From Paracoccaceae bacterium (lineage in GTDB: Bacteria > Pseudomonadota > Alphaproteobacteria > Rhodobacterales > Rhodobacteraceae): a DNA stretch of 64,000 nt. Under the pieces are notes generated by a model. The model saw only the letters and a program-made list of their open reading frames with translations, was not told the origin of the DNA and ran no database searches. This document shows positions 14,122-21,327 of this stretch, in pieces. Every line of letters begins with the position of its first letter. Positions within the stretch are counted from its first letter, which is position 1. The stretch is from assembly GCA_902534325.1 (NCBI GenBank), contig CACAPQ010000004.1, positions 1 through 64,000 of the forward strand, read 5' to 3'. The translations under genes and the position numbers were made by a program.

Positions 14122-14934
14122 TTAAATAATAGCGCCACGAACTTTTGCAGAAACCCATTCTGAGATAAAAACAGTGATCAAAATAACAATCAAGATTAAA
14201 GATACTTGGGTCCAGGCCAATGTATTTAATGAGCCATTTAACTGTAATCCAATGCCGCCGGCTCCAACTAATCCTAAAATTGTGGACTCACGAATATTTA
14301 TGTCCCAACGATAAATGCCAACTCCAGCAATAGTTGGAAGCACTTGGGGTAATATTCCAAATATCATTTTTTGCGGACCACTTGCACCAGTTGCTTCGAT
14401 AGCCTCTACCTGTGTGTGATCTATTTCTTCAATGGATTCATAAATTAATTTTGCACAGAAACCAATGGACCTAAGCCCGATGGCAATTGTACCTGCCAAA
14501 ACACCGGGCCCCAAAATAAAAACTAAAATTAAAGCCCAAATTAATGAATTCACAGACCTAGATGATACAATAATAAAGAGGCCAATTGTACGAACAACAA
14601 TATTTGGAGTAGTATTACGAGCTGTTGCGAATGCAACCGGTACGGCAATAACCATGGCTATTATAGTTCCAATTGTTGCGATATTTATTGTATCCCAAAC
14701 AGGCTTCCATAACTTATCCATATATGACCATTTTGGAGGTACCATGCGAGAGCCAATGTCAGCAGCTTGGGTTGGTGCGTCGGTCACAAAAAACCATACT
14801 GTTTTTTCAGATATCATCTGCCAAGCATACATAATAACGGCAAGGCCGATTAACCAACAAACCCATCTAATCCATTGTTCTTTGGAGGTACGGAGCCGCC
14901 AAGTTTCAATACCATTATTTGTAATTGCTGGCAT
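14122..14934 (-). CDS. phnE: phosphonate/phosphate-ester ABC transporter permease PhnE (second copy)
   Basis: A 270-residue inner-membrane permease with about six hydrophobic segments and the binding-protein-dependent transport signature EAIEATGASGPQKMIFGILP. PhnE features include SRSVNSLIWALI, LRSIGFCAKLIYE and DINIRESTILGLVGAGGIG. The start used is the ATG at 14934, whose A is the last base of the preceding phnE stop in TAATG, indicating translational coupling; a GTG at 14946 would add four residues. Tandem different PhnE proteins presumably form a heterodimeric channel with PhnC below. Confidence 0.93.
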   Translation of the reverse strand: MPAITNNGIETWRLRTSKEQWIRWVCWLIGLAVIMYAWQMISEKTVWFFVTDAPTQAADIGSRMVPPKWSYMDKLWKPVWDTINIATIGTIIAMVIAVPVAFATARNTTPNIVVRTIGLFIIVSSRSVNSLIWALILVFILGPGVLAGTIAIGLRSIGFCAKLIYESIEEIDHTQVEAIEATGASGPQKMIFGILPQVLPTIAGVGIYRWDINIRESTILGLVGAGGIGLQLNGSLNTLAWTQVSLILIVILITVFISEWVSAKVRGAII

Positions 14935-15749
14935 TACTGCACCCACTTTCTGAAAAAGCTCGATGTATATTCCATCGACATCACAATTAAGATTATTATT
15001 ATAAGTATCGCGGCGGCCGTGTCGAATTCATATCTGGAAAATGATGTATTTAGAGTTGCACCTATCCCACCGCCACCGACAATACCGACAACAGCGGATT
15101 CTCTAAAATTAATATCTAAACGATAAATTGATAAACCTATCATTCTCGGCATAACTTGAGGCTGTATGGAATAATTGATCCACTGAAACCAATTTGCTCC
15201 TGTTGCTTTAACAGCTTCAGCTTGTGACGCGCTTGAGTTTTCTATGTCTTCAGCGAGTAATTTTGCATAAAAACCGATTGTACCAAGTGACAATGCAATA
15301 AAGCCAGCAAATGGTCCAAAACCAAATAATTTTACGGCAAATATCGCGAGTATTATTTCAGGAAAGGTCCTCGAAGCTGCTATTACGCCCCTACAAAATA
15401 AATAGACCCAGGCTGGCGCCAAGTTGCGGGCAGCGCCGAGGCCAATTGGGATCGATAAAGCAATCCCTGCGACTGTAGATATAATAGCCATCCAGATGCT
15501 TTCAGCAATTCCTTCCCAAAGTACCCCGCGGTTGTCTGAGAAATTTGGAGGAAAAAATGAATCCAAAAACCTTTGAGCTCTAGGTAGCCCTTCTTTTACT
15601 CGCTCCAAATCAATATTCATTGTCCCAAGAGCTGCGGCAAGGTAAATTGCTCCACCCACAATTATTAACCATCTTACAAAGCTATTCTTTATAAATGGGG
15701 CTTTTTTCCAACTGGAAGGGTAACTTCCTGTTTCTGAAGAGTCCGTCAT
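14934..15749 (-). CDS. phnE: phosphonate/phosphate-ester ABC transporter permease PhnE (first copy)
   Basis: A 271-residue permease homologous to its downstream neighbour. After a soluble N-terminus, the hydrophobic segment IIVGGAIYLAAALGTM starts at about residue 29. SRTFPEIILAIFAVKLFGFG and LGTIGFYAKLLAEDIE are followed by EAVKATGANWFQWINYSIQP, the loop that docks on the ATPase, and DINFRESAVVGIVGGGGIG. It starts two bases after the phnC stop and its own stop overlaps the next phnE start. Together phnD-phnC-phnE-phnE form one importer for phosphonates or phosphate esters. Confidence 0.93.
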   Translation of the reverse strand: MTDSSETGSYPSSWKKAPFIKNSFVRWLIIVGGAIYLAAALGTMNIDLERVKEGLPRAQRFLDSFFPPNFSDNRGVLWEGIAESIWMAIISTVAGIALSIPIGLGAARNLAPAWVYLFCRGVIAASRTFPEIILAIFAVKLFGFGPFAGFIALSLGTIGFYAKLLAEDIENSSASQAEAVKATGANWFQWINYSIQPQVMPRMIGLSIYRLDINFRESAVVGIVGGGGIGATLNTSFSRYEFDTAAAILIIIILIVMSMEYTSSFFRKWVQ

Positions 15750-15751
15750 GT

Positions 15752-16546
15752 TTAAAACTCTTCCTCATCATCGTCATCTTCGTCTGTTGACTTGATAGTC
15801 GCAGACCAATCTTCCTCACCATATATTCTCGTTAAAACTTCGGGTGTAAGACCGTCGGGTTTTCCATCATAGACAACTGAACCTAGTTCTAAGCCTACAA
15901 CACGCTGAGAAAACATCTGAGCGAGGAAAACGTCGTGAATATTTATTATAGCCGTAAGACCCCTTTCGGAACATAGCTCTTGGATCAATCTCATAATTTG
16001 CCGCGATGTTTTCGGGTCGAGACTTGCGGTTGGCTCATCAACAAGCAACAGATCTGGATTTTGTATTAGTGCACGACAGATTCCCACGCGCTGGCGTTGC
16101 CCACCGGAAAGTTCATCTGCACGCTTATCTGCCATATGTTTTAGGCCAACTCTGTCTAGTAGGCGATAAGCTTCCTGAATATCTGCTCTTGGAAATTTTC
16201 TGAAATAGCTGCGCCAAAACCCAACATAGCCAAGACGGCCTGATAAAACATTTTCCATAACTGTCAATCGTTCAACTAGGGCATACTCTTGGAAAATCAT
16301 GCCCATTCTTCGTCTAGCCTTTCGTAAAGCAGAAGAAGACAATTTTGTGAGCTCCGTTCCTTTAAGCACCACACTTCCTGAGGTTGGTTGTACAAGTCGG
16401 TTCACACAGCGGATTAAAGTAGATTTCCCCGCACCTGATGGTCCGATAAGGGCCAGAACTTGGCCTTTGGGAATCTCTAAAGTAACCCCTTTAAGTGCCA
16501 GCTCTCCAGTATTATATTTTTTTGTTAATTCGGCAAGTTGCAGCAT
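15752..16546 (-). CDS. phnC: phosphonate/phosphate-ester ABC transporter ATP-binding protein
   Basis: A 264-residue ABC ATPase: Walker [10 protein letters not shown] at 35-43, Q-loop [14 protein letters not shown], signature [15 protein letters not shown], Walker [14 protein letters not shown] and the switch His of [20 protein letters not shown] and ENVLSGRLG are typical of PhnC. The C-terminus ends in an unusually acidic tail ([10 protein letters not shown], preceded by IKSTDE) not needed for the ATPase fold. It is separated from phnD by 87 bases containing a strong stem-loop, which could lower expression of phnC-phnE-phnE relative to the binding protein. Confidence 0.95.
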
Positions 16547-16580
16547 ATGGTACCTGTATGTCTATTTGTTTTGTTGCGCT

Positions 16581-16606
16581 AGTCAGGCCCTATTATGGGC
16601 CTGACT
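16581..16606 (-). promoter_or_regulatory. intercistronic stem-loop between phnD and phnC
   Basis: AGTCAGGCCC (16581-16590) and GGGCCTGACT (16597-16606) form a perfect 10-bp stem with a six-base loop. In the direction of phn transcription no T-run follows, so it is not a standard terminator for that strand; it could stabilise the upstream phnD message or partly attenuate. On the other strand it is followed by TTTAGTTTTTT, but no gene there would need a terminator. Confidence 0.65.
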
Positions 16607-16633
16607 TTAGTTTTTTATGACTTCGTCTCTGGA

Positions 16634-17611
16634 TTATTTACAGTCGTAGCTAACGCCGTTTGCTGTATCGATACCTCTGATGACAGCCCAGTCATTCTTA
16701 TGACGAATTCCGATGAAACGGTCAGCTTTTGCGAACTCTTTTTTGAAAGTAGCGTCTGATTCAAAGTCAAAGCTCCAAAATGCGCTTTTGATTTTTGCAA
16801 CAAGCTCTGGATGTAAGTTGTGTGCGTGGCCGTATCCAGTAGTTGGGAATGTTGCCGACTTGTATACTATTTGCAGTACATCCTTTTCTATAACACCGCG
16901 GCGCTCCATTCGCTGCCTAACTGAGTTGGCTATAGCAGCAACTTCGTAGTCACCGTTATAAACACCTAAAATAGAGTTATCGTGCTTTCCAGAAAATGTT
17001 GGCGTGAAATCTTTGTCTGCCAACAAGCCAAACTCACCTTTTAGGATCGCAGAAGGCGCTTTAAAGCCAGAATTAGATGTTGGTGACGTAAAGGCCATTG
17101 TTCGACCCGCAATATCTGCTGGAGATGTGATATCACTGCCTTTTTTCACAATAATTTCCATCTCATAACCGTATCTTCCATCGTCGTATGCCATCATACC
17201 AAAAGGTACAAAGCCAGCACAGCTAACTGCTATTGGATTTGATCCTGTGTTAAAACCAGCAACATGAAGTCTCCCTGAGCGCATAGCTTCAAGCTGTGCA
17301 GCATTTGACTCCACTGGGAAAAACACCACTTTTCGGTCAGTATATTTTTCCAGATGGTCTGTGAATGGTTTCCAAACATTTGCATATACAGCAGGATCTT
17401 CCACAGGAGTATACGTGAATATTATTGTTTTAGGGTCAACCCAATCTTTTGGATCCAGCGGCAAATCAGCAACTTGGTCTAAATTTCTGTCGCAATAAGC
17501 GTCATCCAGTGTTCCTCTGTGACAGTCTTCGGCGACTGCTTGCGTAACAAAACTTGCACACAACATAATGGCGGCCGAAATAGCGGCGCCTAATTTCAAT
17601 TTGTTAATCAT
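16634..17611 (-). CDS. phnD: phosphonate/phosphate-ester ABC transporter substrate-binding protein
   Basis: A 325-residue periplasmic binding protein. The signal peptide covers about residues 1-27 (KLKLGAAISAAIMLCASF, cleavage after VAEA-like AVAED). The mature PhnD/phosphate-phosphite-phosphonate domain contains FTYTPVEDPAVYANVWKPF, VFFPVESNAAQLEAM, AGFNTGSNPIAV and AFTSPTSNSGFKAP. The SPTSNSGF loop is where this family contacts the phosphonate or phosphate oxygens. It is the first gene of the phnDCEE operon, transcribed leftward and divergent from a HAD phosphatase gene. No C-P lyase genes follow, so the ligand may be an ester, phosphite or an aminoalkylphosphonate. Confidence 0.93.
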   Translation of the reverse strand: MINKLKLGAAISAAIMLCASFVTQAVAEDCHRGTLDDAYCDRNLDQVADLPLDPKDWVDPKTIIFTYTPVEDPAVYANVWKPFTDHLEKYTDRKVVFFPVESNAAQLEAMRSGRLHVAGFNTGSNPIAVSCAGFVPFGMMAYDDGRYGYEMEIIVKKGSDITSPADIAGRTMAFTSPTSNSGFKAPSAILKGEFGLLADKDFTPTFSGKHDNSILGVYNGDYEVAAIANSVRQRMERRGVIEKDVLQIVYKSATFPTTGYGHAHNLHPELVAKIKSAFWSFDFESDATFKKEFAKADRFIGIRHKNDWAVIRGIDTANGVSYDCK

Positions 17612-17752: not shown

Positions 17753-18454
17753 ATGTTATTAAATAGTGTGGGGTGTGACTTGGGAAAATCAGATGCTCTT
17801 AAGGCAAGTATAATATTCGACTTGGATGGTACTTTAATTGACAGTGCTAAAGACATTCAATGGGTTGCCAATACTGCTTTATCTAAAATTGGAGTTGCTC
17901 CTATCAGCTACGAGGAAGCTGTCAGCTTTATTGGTGAAGGTGCCCCACTATTTGTTAAGAAAATGATTGCGGCTCGATCAGTTGAAACCGATCAACATGA
18001 TTTCCTGCTAGAGCAATTTTTAAAATTTTATGAGGAAGCTGTGCAATTTAGTAAGCCATATGACAATGTCGTCGCTGTTTTGGAAATGCTGAATGCAAAC
18101 CATAATCTAGGAGTATGCACAAATAAACCACTGAAGCCTGCATTGAAGATTTTAAAGCATTTAAAATTAGATCATTTTTTTAAATGTGTAACAGGAGGTG
18201 ACAACCCATTAGCAAGAAAACCAGATCCAAGACCTCTGTTTAAAACATCTGAAAGCATAGGGGATGGTCCGTGTGTTTATGTTGGCGATAGTGAAGTTGA
18301 TGCTGAGACGGCCAAAAGAGCTGATGTTCCATTTTTACTCTTTTCTGAGGGATACCGTAAAACACCTGTAGAAAAGATCCCACATACCTTTCAATTTTCA
18401 TCCTTCAAGGAACTACCTAGATTAATTGAAAAAGTATTAGTATCGGCTCACTAG
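17753..18454 (+). CDS. gph: phosphoglycolate phosphatase-like HAD hydrolase
   Basis: A 233-residue HAD-I phosphatase with ASIIFDLDGTLIDSAKDI (nucleophile DLDGT), VCTNKP (motif II), ARKPDPRPL (motif III Lys) and YVGDSEVDAETAKRA (motif IV). The small alpha-helical cap and the DSAKDI sequence are those of Gph, which removes 2-phosphoglycolate. The annotated ATG adds about 17 residues before the first strand and has no clear Shine-Dalgarno; an in-frame GTG at 17768 or TTG at 17780 may be the true start. It is divergent from phnD across 141 bases, so it might act on an imported phosphate ester instead. Confidence 0.85.
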   Translation: MLLNSVGCDLGKSDALKASIIFDLDGTLIDSAKDIQWVANTALSKIGVAPISYEEAVSFIGEGAPLFVKKMIAARSVETDQHDFLLEQFLKFYEEAVQFSKPYDNVVAVLEMLNANHNLGVCTNKPLKPALKILKHLKLDHFFKCVTGGDNPLARKPDPRPLFKTSESIGDGPCVYVGDSEVDAETAKRADVPFLLFSEGYRKTPVEKIPHTFQFSSFKELPRLIEKVLVSAH

Positions 18455-18618: not shown

Positions 18619-19833
18619 ATGAGTATTTTGCATGGTATGCGGGTTTTTGAAAGCTCAGCTTTTGTTGCTTTACCTCTTGCAGGTATGCAATTAGCCCAAA
18701 TGGGTGCAGAAGTTATCCGGTTTGATAATTTAGGGGGAGGCCTTGATCACTTCAGAAGACCGCTCGCTCCCAACGGCGAAAGTTTATTCTGGCATGGTCT
18801 AAATAAAGGAAAAAAATCTTTTGCTGTAGATTTAAAATCTGAAAAAGGGCGCGAACTGGTCAGCGATCTAATCACTTCAGATGGTGATGATGCCGGTTTG
18901 TTCATAACCAATCTGAGAGTGCCTGGTTGGACAGATTATGAAAGCCTTAAAAGAAAGCGCGCTGATTTAATAATGGTTACTCTGAAAGGCGATCGACACG
19001 GGGGGCCGGAAGTTGACTATACTGTTAACCCATCGCTTGGAATACCCCACATTACTGGCGCTGAGGGCAGCACAGAACCTGTTGCAAATGCTCTTCCCGC
19101 CTGGGATTGCGTAGCAGGTAATATGGTCGTCTCTTCACTACTTGCAGCTGAGCGAGATCGTTTGCGAACTGGAAGGGGTCAGGACGTGGAGTTCGCTTTA
19201 AAAGATGCTGCGGCTGCAGTAATTGGTCACCTTGGAATGATAGGAGAGGCGACAATTTACGATCAACAAAGAGGAAAATCGGGCAATTCTGTATATGGAG
19301 CCTATGGCCAAGATTTTGAGTGTGCTTGCGGTGGTCGAGTTGTTGTAATTGGTCTTACCTTGAGGCAATGGCGTGGCCTATTAAAAGCAACAGATAAAGC
19401 ACAGGAAATCAAAAAACTTGAACAGAAATTAAATATTTCCTTAGATGACGAAGGGCATCGTTGGGAACACAGGCATGAAATAAATAACGTTTTTCGGTCA
19501 TGGTTTTCAAAGCGAAAAATTTCTGATTTTGAGAAAAGTTTTAATGATTTTGGTCTCACCTGGTCACGATTTAGAACAACAAAAGAAGCAATTACTGAGG
19601 ACAAAGATACATTCACTGATAATCCAATGTTTGAAACATTAAATTTTGAAGGGGTTGGCCAATACATGGTTCCTAGATCGCCATTAGAATTTTCTAATTA
19701 TGATCGTTTGCCTGCCCAAAAGCCTCCAAAGCTTGGTCAGCACACTGAGGAAATTTTGGGTGACATAATGAAGTTGGGATCAGGTGAGATTGGGGCACTT
19801 TTTGATAGTGGAACCGTTGGGTCTTCCAAATAA
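18619..19833 (+). CDS. mct: CaiB/BaiF family CoA-transferase, probable 2-methylfumaryl-CoA isomerase
   Basis: A 404-residue family III CoA-transferase. The N-terminus FESSAFVALPLAGMQLAQMG, then GGGLDHFRRPL, FWHGLNKGKKSFAVDL, DYTVNPSLGIPHITG and LPAWDCVAGNM resemble, from memory, mesaconyl-CoA C1-C4 CoA transferase (Mct) far more than formyl-CoA transferase or CaiB. The Asp in PAWDCVAG is the catalytic residue position. Mct moves CoA within 2-methylfumaryl-CoA in the 3-hydroxypropionate bicycle, and some marine proteobacteria are known to carry part of that pathway. None of its usual partners (mesaconyl-CoA hydratases, malyl-CoA lyase) are in this window. It has a GGGAAG site before the ATG. 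Confidence 0.75.
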   Translation: MSILHGMRVFESSAFVALPLAGMQLAQMGAEVIRFDNLGGGLDHFRRPLAPNGESLFWHGLNKGKKSFAVDLKSEKGRELVSDLITSDGDDAGLFITNLRVPGWTDYESLKRKRADLIMVTLKGDRHGGPEVDYTVNPSLGIPHITGAEGSTEPVANALPAWDCVAGNMVVSSLLAAERDRLRTGRGQDVEFALKDAAAAVIGHLGMIGEATIYDQQRGKSGNSVYGAYGQDFECACGGRVVVIGLTLRQWRGLLKATDKAQEIKKLEQKLNISLDDEGHRWEHRHEINNVFRSWFSKRKISDFEKSFNDFGLTWSRFRTTKEAITEDKDTFTDNPMFETLNFEGVGQYMVPRSPLEFSNYDRLPAQKPPKLGQHTEEILGDIMKLGSGEIGALFDSGTVGSSK

Positions 19834-19980: not shown

Positions 19981-21327
19981 TTATTGGTTCATGGCCCTTT
20001 TATGCTGAGGTAGATAAATGCTGACAAGTACAATTCCAGCTAATCCTAATATTGCAGCTGGGATTAATGTTATAGAAATTTGTAGTGTATTAAGCGCAGC
20101 ATCGGTCTGCTGGGTAATTCCTTCAGTCGTTTCTTTCCATCCATATAGGCTTAGGATAAACCCTAAAATTAAAGGAGAAATAGCATTTGCTACCTTCTGA
20201 CCAAAAAGCCAAACCGCAGAAAAAGCGCCTTCAATAGATTCACCAGATTTTTCACGAGTTACATCCATCAGATCTGGATATAGCGCCCAAGGAATTTGTT
20301 GGTAAGATCCATTGGTCATTCCAGCTAAAATAAAAAGACCAGCAATTATTGTAACGTTATAGTTAGGCAAACTGAAGAATATAAAAATCAATAGAGCAAT
20401 ATAGCACGCAATGCCAATGAGTTGCGCCGTAACTTTACCATATAAATTGGACAATTTAACCCATAAGGCCTGACTGATAATTGAGCCTATCACAAATGCT
20501 GCGAACATCAGTGAAAGAGTTCCAAGACCTTTCGCAACACCAGAAAATAATGAATCCCCATCATCCAGTATCAAATACATTGCGGCGAAAGGTAGTCCCG
20601 CAGTGATTAAGGCTATTGCTAGCGTCATAATGCCATATAAAATTACCAAAGTAACAAATGCACGATTAGCCAAAACTAGTTTTAAAATGTACGAAAAATT
20701 TTGTTGGGATGGAACCAAAGTGCGGGGCGCTTTCCGTGTGAAAAACACTGAAAGCCATATAGATAAAATTATTAGTGGAGCCACGCAGATTGCTGCAAAA
20801 GTATAGCCAGATTTTGTATCTCCCGCTAAGATTGGTATTAGCGCGCCACCAACCAAAATACCTAAAGAGGCAAATGCCATGCGCCACGCGGTCATAGAAG
20901 ATCTTTCCTTTCTATCCAATGTCATTTCGCCCGCCATAGCACCGTAAGGTATTGAAACCATTGTAAAACCTAAAGTTGATATCAAGAAAAAAACGATAAC
21001 CCAGATAAGGCTTGCACTTGTAGTGAAATTTTCTGGCACAGCAAATAGTCCAATCATTGCAAGTGCTAAAACGACTGCTCCTACGACCATCCAAGGGGCT
21101 CTTCTTCCAAAACGAGAAACTGTCTTGTCACTAAAATAGCCGATTATTGGATCCGTAATTATATCAAAAATTAAAACAGCTGTCGTCACGGCACCTGCCA
21201 GAGCGATTGGAATGCCAAGGAAACTATTCATAAAGGCCAAAATTAACAGTTGTTTTACGATAACGAAAACAACGATTCCCATATCCGCCAAACCCCAGCC
21301 GGCTTTTTGACCTATTGAAAGTGACAT
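19981..21327 (-). CDS. MFS transporter, glycoside-pentoside-hexuronide:cation symporter type
   Basis: A 448-residue transporter with about twelve hydrophobic segments. KAGWGLADMGIVVF at the N-terminus and FDIITDPIIGYFSDKTVSRFGRRAPW in the first part match the GPH (MelB-like) family, where the Asp residues take part in cation coupling; LGFTMVSIPYGAMAGEMT is also typical. Such proteins import sugars or related glycosides with Na+ or H+. The substrate is not evident. It lies 42 bases downstream of lysA on the same strand, as the last gene of an apparent argH-lptM-aminotransferase-lysA operon. Confidence 0.85.
   Translation of the reverse strand: MSLSIGQKAGWGLADMGIVVFVIVKQLLILAFMNSFLGIPIALAGAVTTAVLIFDIITDPIIGYFSDKTVSRFGRRAPWMVVGAVVLALAMIGLFAVPENFTTSASLIWVIVFFLISTLGFTMVSIPYGAMAGEMTLDRKERSSMTAWRMAFASLGILVGGALIPILAGDTKSGYTFAAICVAPLIILSIWLSVFFTRKAPRTLVPSQQNFSYILKLVLANRAFVTLVILYGIMTLAIALITAGLPFAAMYLILDDGDSLFSGVAKGLGTLSLMFAAFVIGSIISQALWVKLSNLYGKVTAQLIGIACYIALLIFIFFSLPNYNVTIIAGLFILAGMTNGSYQQIPWALYPDLMDVTREKSGESIEGAFSAVWLFGQKVANAISPLILGFILSLYGWKETTEGITQQTDAALNTLQISITLIPAAILGLAGIVLVSIYLPQHKRAMNQ

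Follow-up and report, generated by a model that had tools for sequence, protein, structure and literature searches.

A lone Mct-like gene and a possible route from acetyl-CoA and CO2 to pyruvate in small-genome marine Rhodobacteraceae

According to passages of PMC11599936, the common pathways of acetyl-CoA assimilation lead to a C4 compound, from which C3 must be reached by decarboxylation, and engineers are looking for oxygen-tolerant routes that fix CO2 and yield pyruvate. The reductive citramalyl/ethylmalonyl-CoA pathway is presented in a passage of PMC10521678 as an artificial design made in silico in 2021, with a calculated value of -39 +/- 9 kJ/mol. The route that we propose below for a lineage of marine Rhodobacteraceae would share the reaction chain and the net equation given in that passage; however, the design there joins parts of different organisms, whereas here the parts would share one natural genome. 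The ethylmalonyl-CoA pathway of the Rhodobacter sphaeroides type has Ccr, Msd and Mcl1 in common with this lineage, in which an Ecm-like mutase also occurs; the lineage differs in being without Mcd and Mcl2 and in the proposed products, acetyl-CoA and pyruvate instead of glyoxylate and propionyl-CoA. With the second cycle of the 3-hydroxypropionate bicycle it has in common Mct, a hydratase of the mesaconyl-C4-CoA type and malyl/citramalyl-CoA lyases, but it is without the mesaconyl-C1-CoA hydratase of that cycle. Itaconate and methylsuccinate degradation (ich, ccl) offers a further likeness, given that one hydratase of the genome analysed here (P0004) resembles Ich and one lyase (locus L115) resembles RipC/Ccl; however, these two genes are clustered neither together nor with the Mct-like gene, and no itaconate CoA transferase was assigned. 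According to passages of PMC12661815, nearly all Roseobacter-group genera have the ethylmalonyl-CoA pathway, and those passages give no sign of the present variant there. The literature searched named no natural use of the route, and our claim of novelty is limited to that search.

The stretch of DNA that we analysed (the window, 64,000 nucleotides) belongs to a genome assembly of 2.09 Mb in 74 contigs that is 77.8% complete (G000). Four of its genes are referred to throughout.

Positions 3-809, + strand: meaB, encoding the GTPase that serves B12-dependent acyl-CoA mutases, truncated at the left end of the window.
Positions 17753-18454, + strand: HAD-family phosphatase gene upstream of the Mct-like gene, in the slot that a meh-like gene takes in relatives.
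Positions 18619-19833, + strand: gene for an Mct-like family III CoA transferase of 404 amino acids, recognised from ORF, profile, structure-database, tree and dN/dS evidence.
Positions 19981-21327, opposite (-) strand: MFS transporter gene (MFS_2) downstream of the Mct-like gene.

The Mct-like gene is confirmed as a real gene and not a chance ORF. Its frame of 404 codons on the + strand is intact from ATG to stop, and near-identical genes (84-98%) were found in seven Rhodobacteraceae or Paracoccaceae bacterium records (L006-L012), which together with the window make up the eight sequences or genomes called the lineage here. The frame is intact in all eight, and dN/dS between the window gene and the other lineage genes was 0.06-0.10 in all seven comparisons, with dS near saturation for the most distant pair, indicating that the gene is in use and under purifying selection. 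The loss of the adjoining partner gene (see below) and the streamlined size of the genome (2.09 Mb at 77.8% completeness) would suit a relic without function; this reading is hardly credible, and we rejected it on the intact frames, the dN/dS values of 0.06-0.10 and the conserved catalytic residues. An earlier note on this DNA had described the gene as unlinked to other genes of its route, and its neighbours are indeed the HAD phosphatase gene, found upstream in six of seven lineage loci (the exception being L010), and the MFS transporter gene, found downstream in seven of seven; meaB also lies at the window edge, as that note said. An Rfam scan returned one tRNA and no RNA match at the Mct-like locus, and scans for promoters and terminators gave counts at or below shuffled expectation. 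Elsewhere in the window (14122-17611, - strand) lies a phosphonate-type ABC transporter, whose binding protein matches PF12974 at 203.9 bits and which, by reading of the translations, has two permease-like genes and one ATPase-like gene.

The 404-residue protein carries the motifs SAFVA, GGGLD, NKGK, EVDYTVNP and LPAWD, from which the earlier note had taken it for an Mct-like member of the CaiB family, an assignment that the database searches uphold. It matches Pfam CoA_transf_3 at 177.9 bits, and the best NCBIfam model is TIGR04253 (2-methylfumaryl-CoA isomerase) at 470 bits, followed by the next model at 90.9 bits. In the PDB, the highest-scoring entries are 7xkg (Mct of Roseiflexus, 454.9 bits) and 8apq (Mct of Chloroflexus, 446.8 bits), with the next protein at 89.5 bits. 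These two Chloroflexi enzymes share its fold family and have 52.9% and 51.5% identity to it, respectively, over the full length, whereas three further CaiB-family proteins encoded in the window genome are only 22-25% identical to it. The curated cut-off of TIGR04253, 725 bits, lies above the score of the window protein and was reached in none of 198 Rhodobacteraceae genomes; among the 31 of these genomes with a strong Mct-like gene (above 350 bits), the window protein scored lower on this model than 27 of the other 30 family members.

A tree of 56 rows, from which L004 (a short match), two fragments of G021 and one fragment of G180 were left out, agrees with this placement; its outgroup has long branches, and it is rooted for display only. 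The window protein groups with its lineage (support 100/100) and then with L013 (100/98), inside a Rhodobacteraceae-type clade of 40 rows (100/99). A clade of 44 rows (99/96) unites these with two proteins from betaproteobacterial plasmids and with both Chloroflexi Mct, and the three CaiB paralogs of the window genome fall outside it on long branches. The phylogeny that had been proposed as a check thus puts the protein within the Mct clade. The stem branch of its lineage is long (0.50).

The active site was compared in an alignment of 56 rows (53 Mct-like proteins and the three other CaiB proteins of the window genome), with residues numbered as in the Chloroflexus enzyme. Four codons of the window gene, all on the + strand, correspond to residues of known role.

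Positions 18742-18744, + strand: codon of Leu42, aligned with Leu43 of Chloroflexus Mct; kept.
Positions 18754-18756, + strand: codon of Arg46, aligned with Arg47; Arg in all 53 Mct-like rows and in none of the three CaiB paralogs.
Positions 19018-19020, + strand: codon of Tyr134, aligned with Tyr136; kept.
Positions 19105-19107, + strand: codon of Asp163, aligned with the catalytic Asp165; Asp in 56 of 56 rows.

Passages of PMC9813914 describe Leu43 as constricting the mouth of the active site and Tyr136 as binding the free carboxylate, and passages of the same paper and of PMC9196870 describe Arg47 as binding the free carboxylate of mesaconyl-CoA and Asp165 as the catalytic residue. Unlike the Chloroflexi enzymes, the window protein has Leu, Lys and Pro in place of the cork residues of the CoA tunnel (Phe101, Arg75 and Arg104, respectively) and Gly in place of Arg314, which counts as a cork residue in Roseiflexus, the Arg at this last position being confined to the two Chloroflexi rows; its gene also stands in no operon with mch and mcl. 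Since it falls below the TIGR04253 cut-off and is without the cork residues, we do not file it as a strict Mct. Its class can nevertheless be called Mct-like, and its function predicted to be like that of Mct, with high confidence, and it very probably interconverts the C1 and C4 forms of mesaconyl-CoA. The lost cork residues and the long stem of the lineage (0.50) would also suit an enzyme that has drifted to another substrate, moving CoA from one carboxylate to the other on another diacid, or from one molecule to another. Homologues of at most 48% identity occur on plasmids in 24 records, and plasmid homologues are among those that adjoin genes for acyl-CoA dehydrogenases and thiolases; the literature also contains a report of ThnP, an intramolecular CoA transferase that acts in naphthalene degradation. 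However, the residues that bind mesaconate are kept, and the loss of Mcd described below fits a mesaconyl substrate, which makes a change of substrate very unlikely.

The earlier note had regarded the isolation of the gene as unusual, and among relatives it is: a meh-like hydratase gene adjoins the strong Mct-like gene in 25 of the 31 sampled genomes that have one, the six exceptions being the window genome, G164, G030, G068, G083 and G144, and likewise in all five of the records L013-L017. A malyl-CoA-lyase gene lies about 2-3 kb upstream in 6 of 20 stretches (L057, L066, L068, L073, L074 and L075) and in L016. In L057, L066, L073 and L016 (some Rhodobacteraceae and one Rhodobiaceae record), meh-mct or mct alone closes a serine-cycle-like cluster of a regulator, an aminotransferase, a malyl-CoA lyase and two malate-thiokinase-like genes. 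Reading of the intervening translations in L057, L066 and L073 gave the lyase together with the aminotransferase and the two malate-thiokinase-like genes, the last three being probably SgaA, MtkA and MtkB. The clusters of the relatives indicate that the wider family ties Mct to C2/C4 acyl-CoA metabolism and that the window lineage has lost this linkage.

Such clusters, with a malyl-CoA lyase upstream of (meh-)mct, favour the suggestion of the earlier note that the gene belongs to a partial 3-hydroxypropionate bicycle co-assimilating propionate derivatives, in which glyoxylate and propionyl-CoA would pass through beta-methylmalyl-CoA, mesaconyl-C1-CoA, mesaconyl-C4-CoA and citramalyl-CoA to acetyl-CoA and pyruvate. 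As 24 of the 31 genomes with an Mct-like gene keep Mcd, this direction is open to those relatives. However, PF19315 (mesaconyl-CoA hydratase) found Mch/Mcd in none of the eight lineage genomes, whereas seven of eight other genomes matched, six of them above the cut-off. A Rhodobacteraceae Mcd protein used as query matched 175 of the 198 genomes and neither the window genome nor G164, the assembly of which is 96% complete. The second-cycle set (mch, mcl, mct and meh) is thus incomplete in the lineage, where mch is absent, and there would be no known enzyme by which mesaconyl-C1-CoA could be made from glyoxylate and propionyl-CoA. The partial bicycle is therefore distinctly unlikely, and we rejected it for the window lineage because Mch/Mcd was not found.

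The gene order around sdhC agrees with this absence. The order mdh, mcl2, mcd, sdhC is seen in L125, L126, L127 and L129, which were chosen because mcl2-mcd is present in them. In the window genome, G164 and G204, a single contig carries both mdh and sdhC at a distance of 1.1-1.7 kb, and nothing between them matches mcl2 or mcd. The absence of mcl2-mcd at this place is thus a real deletion and not an assembly gap. Being without Mcd, the genome stands outside the definition of the ethylmalonyl-CoA pathway. The window genome and G164 also gave no isocitrate lyase match beyond ICL/PEPM-family frames of 285-297 amino acids (at most 61 bits). Frames of ICL length were found in eight other genomes, six of which belong to the 12 that have neither strong Ccr nor Mcd, a sign that the searches behave. 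On contig C13 of the window genome (L175:6850-9471), a LeuC/LeuD-like pair has as neighbours hydantoinase-like genes and a gene for a 282-residue ICL/PEPM-family protein.

Genes or candidate genes for the opening steps of the ethylmalonyl-CoA pathway are present in the window genome. Ccr is encoded at C9:26520-27797 (612 bits, above the cut-off), head to head with a gene for a 654-residue acyl-CoA mutase that reaches 526 bits on the methylmalonyl-CoA mutase model (cut-off 876); from its position and score, we infer this mutase to be Ecm. A second Ccr-like paralog at C6:21481-22668 (L119; 545.7 bits, above the cut-off) adjoins an aminomethyltransferase-like gene and is distinct from the ccr beside the mutase gene. 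The candidate for Msd, an acyl-CoA dehydrogenase of 564 residues, scored 816.5 bits against PDB 6es9, which we take to be the methylsuccinyl-CoA dehydrogenase of Paracoccus, and 280.5 bits against 8ciw.

Lyases of suitable families are present as well. An Mcl1-type lyase, which in the window genome scored 510 bits against the malyl-CoA lyase of R. sphaeroides (4l9y), occurs in five of the eight lineage genomes, the assemblies of which are incomplete; a passage of PMC3832036 reports that R. sphaeroides Mcl1 makes citramalyl-CoA reversibly. A RipC/Ccl-like lyase scored 250 bits (cut-off 375). PF03328 matched three proteins each in the window genome and G164, and by score, length and place these were taken as RipC-like, Mcl1 and HpcH-like, none of them being assigned as Mcl2. 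The RipC-like gene lies in a cluster on contig C17 (L115:6125-18802) that resembles a set for branched-diacid breakdown; its other genes presumably encode a Rieske-type oxygenase, an SBP56-like protein, two MmgE/PrpD-family proteins, a CaiB protein and dehydrogenases. The earlier note had suggested a search of the genome for other pathway genes and would have been refuted by finding none. That result did not occur: the genome has a hydratase, and lyases too, of fitting families, and mch was not found.

The hydratase in question, P0004 on contig C1 (C1:61206-62051), scored 231-232 bits against itaconyl-CoA hydratase, and its type occurs in six of the eight lineage genomes, which are incomplete assemblies. 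In a hydratase tree of 33 rows, 20 hydratases linked to Mct split from the rest (87/94), and P0004 falls outside this group, together with hydratases of G031, G099 and G115 (100/100), three genomes without an Mct-like gene. The tree thus places P0004 as a paralog, the cognate hydratase linked to Mct being gone from the window lineage. In G115 (L180:5843-9638), genes for a GST, an itaconyl-CoA-hydratase-like protein, an acyl-CoA dehydrogenase and a CaiB protein stand in a row, and of these neighbours only the GST is kept beside P0004 in the window genome. Its position in the tree and the G115 cluster indicate that the substrate of P0004 may differ. Nevertheless, itaconyl-CoA hydratases are reported in a passage of PMC12290011 to be active as mesaconyl-C4-CoA hydratases too, which makes P0004 a plausible partner for the Mct route.

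We propose that these enzymes make up a truncated ethylmalonyl-CoA pathway with a new end. Ccr, Ecm and Msd would lead to mesaconyl-C1-CoA, as in the opening steps of the ethylmalonyl-CoA pathway; Mct would convert this to mesaconyl-C4-CoA by moving CoA within the molecule; hydration by an itaconyl-CoA/mesaconyl-C4-CoA-type hydratase would yield (S)-citramalyl-CoA; and Mcl1 or the RipC-like lyase would split the latter into acetyl-CoA and pyruvate, in place of the glyoxylate and propionyl-CoA of the normal pathway end. The net reaction would be acetyl-CoA + CO2 + 2 NADPH -> pyruvate, and two electrons would enter the quinone pool. With Mcd gone, mesaconyl-C1-CoA would be a dead end without Mct. 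The usual role of Mcl2 is to convert glyoxylate-derived malyl-CoA to malate, and its loss is in keeping with a pathway in which glyoxylate is no longer formed. Against the proposal, the genes of the route are unlinked in the window genome, and its weakest link is the hydratase, a paralog of the one that accompanies Mct elsewhere. The identity of the mutase as Ecm, the substrates of the hydratase and the lyase, and the flux through the whole are inferred from the genomes. Taken as a whole, the route (truncated ethylmalonyl-CoA pathway, Mct, hydratase and lyase) has, in our estimate, close to an even chance of being correct. Somewhat less probable, at a little under even, is the wider claim of a natural oxygen-tolerant pathway from acetyl-CoA and CO2 to pyruvate in small-genome marine Rhodobacteraceae, in which the Mcd/Mcl2 branch has been deleted and Mct, a hydratase and a lyase act instead. 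If true, this reading would account for the lone Mct-like gene, free-living marine bacteria would already run such a route without carbon loss, and annotating a normal ethylmalonyl-CoA pathway from the presence of Ccr would be mistaken for these lineages.

The distribution of the genes across the family was assessed in 198 Rhodobacteraceae genomes, 176 of which have strong Ccr (E <= 1e-220; six genomes with weaker matches were set aside), 11 of these without Mcd. Mct-like genes were found in 7 of the 11 genomes with Ccr and without Mcd, compared with 23 of the 165 with both (Fisher p=4.4e-4, genomes treated as independent). With one genome per genus, which removes relatedness only in part, Mct-like genes were found in 6 of 10 genomes with Ccr and without Mcd (p=0.0017). 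Among genomes at least 90% complete the counts were 3 of 6 and 21 of 153 (p=0.045), five of the 11 genomes with Ccr and without Mcd being less than 80% complete. In genomes without strong Ccr, an Mct-like gene was present in none of the 12 without Mcd and in one of the 10 with Mcd. Some assignments bear on these counts: a G180 fragment (126 amino acids, 178 bits, in a genome with Mcd) was not scored as an Mct-like gene and would change 23 of 165 to 24 of 165; G157, G166 and G172 were assigned as without Mcd by elimination; and the Mcd match of G061 (6e-21), scored as present, is probably a paralog. In this search of 198 genomes, G119, G131, G155 and G172 showed strong Ccr and neither Mcd nor an Mct-like gene, which counts against the proposed route.

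This enrichment bears on another explanation, namely that a hydratase unrelated to Mcd serves mesaconyl-C1-CoA, so that the ethylmalonyl-CoA pathway would run as usual and Mct would be a side route or salvage enzyme. A haloarchaeal Mch of unrelated sequence catalyses the reaction, as stated in a passage of PMC5592240, and short MaoC-family hydratases are available (three in the window genome, four in G164). However, these MaoC frames are single-domain and only 114-203 amino acids long; Mcl2, the normal user of glyoxylate, is not among the PF03328 matches of the window genome and G164 and is missing beside mdh; and the enrichment of Mct in genomes without Mcd would be left unexplained. We consider this explanation unlikely.

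Under the proposed route to pyruvate, the same exchange of Mcd for Mct may have occurred several times in the family. The genomes with Ccr, without Mcd and with a full-length Mct-like gene (the window genome with G164, G030, G068, G083 and G166) are scattered in the Mct tree, a pattern that points to more than one such event. Two of them count against the proposal: the G068 copy lies in a distant clade, and G030 gave no hydratase match at E <= 1e-30. Across the whole sample, meh-like hydratases were found in 30 of the 31 genomes with an Mct-like gene, compared with 101 of the 167 without one (p=2e-5, genomes treated as independent).
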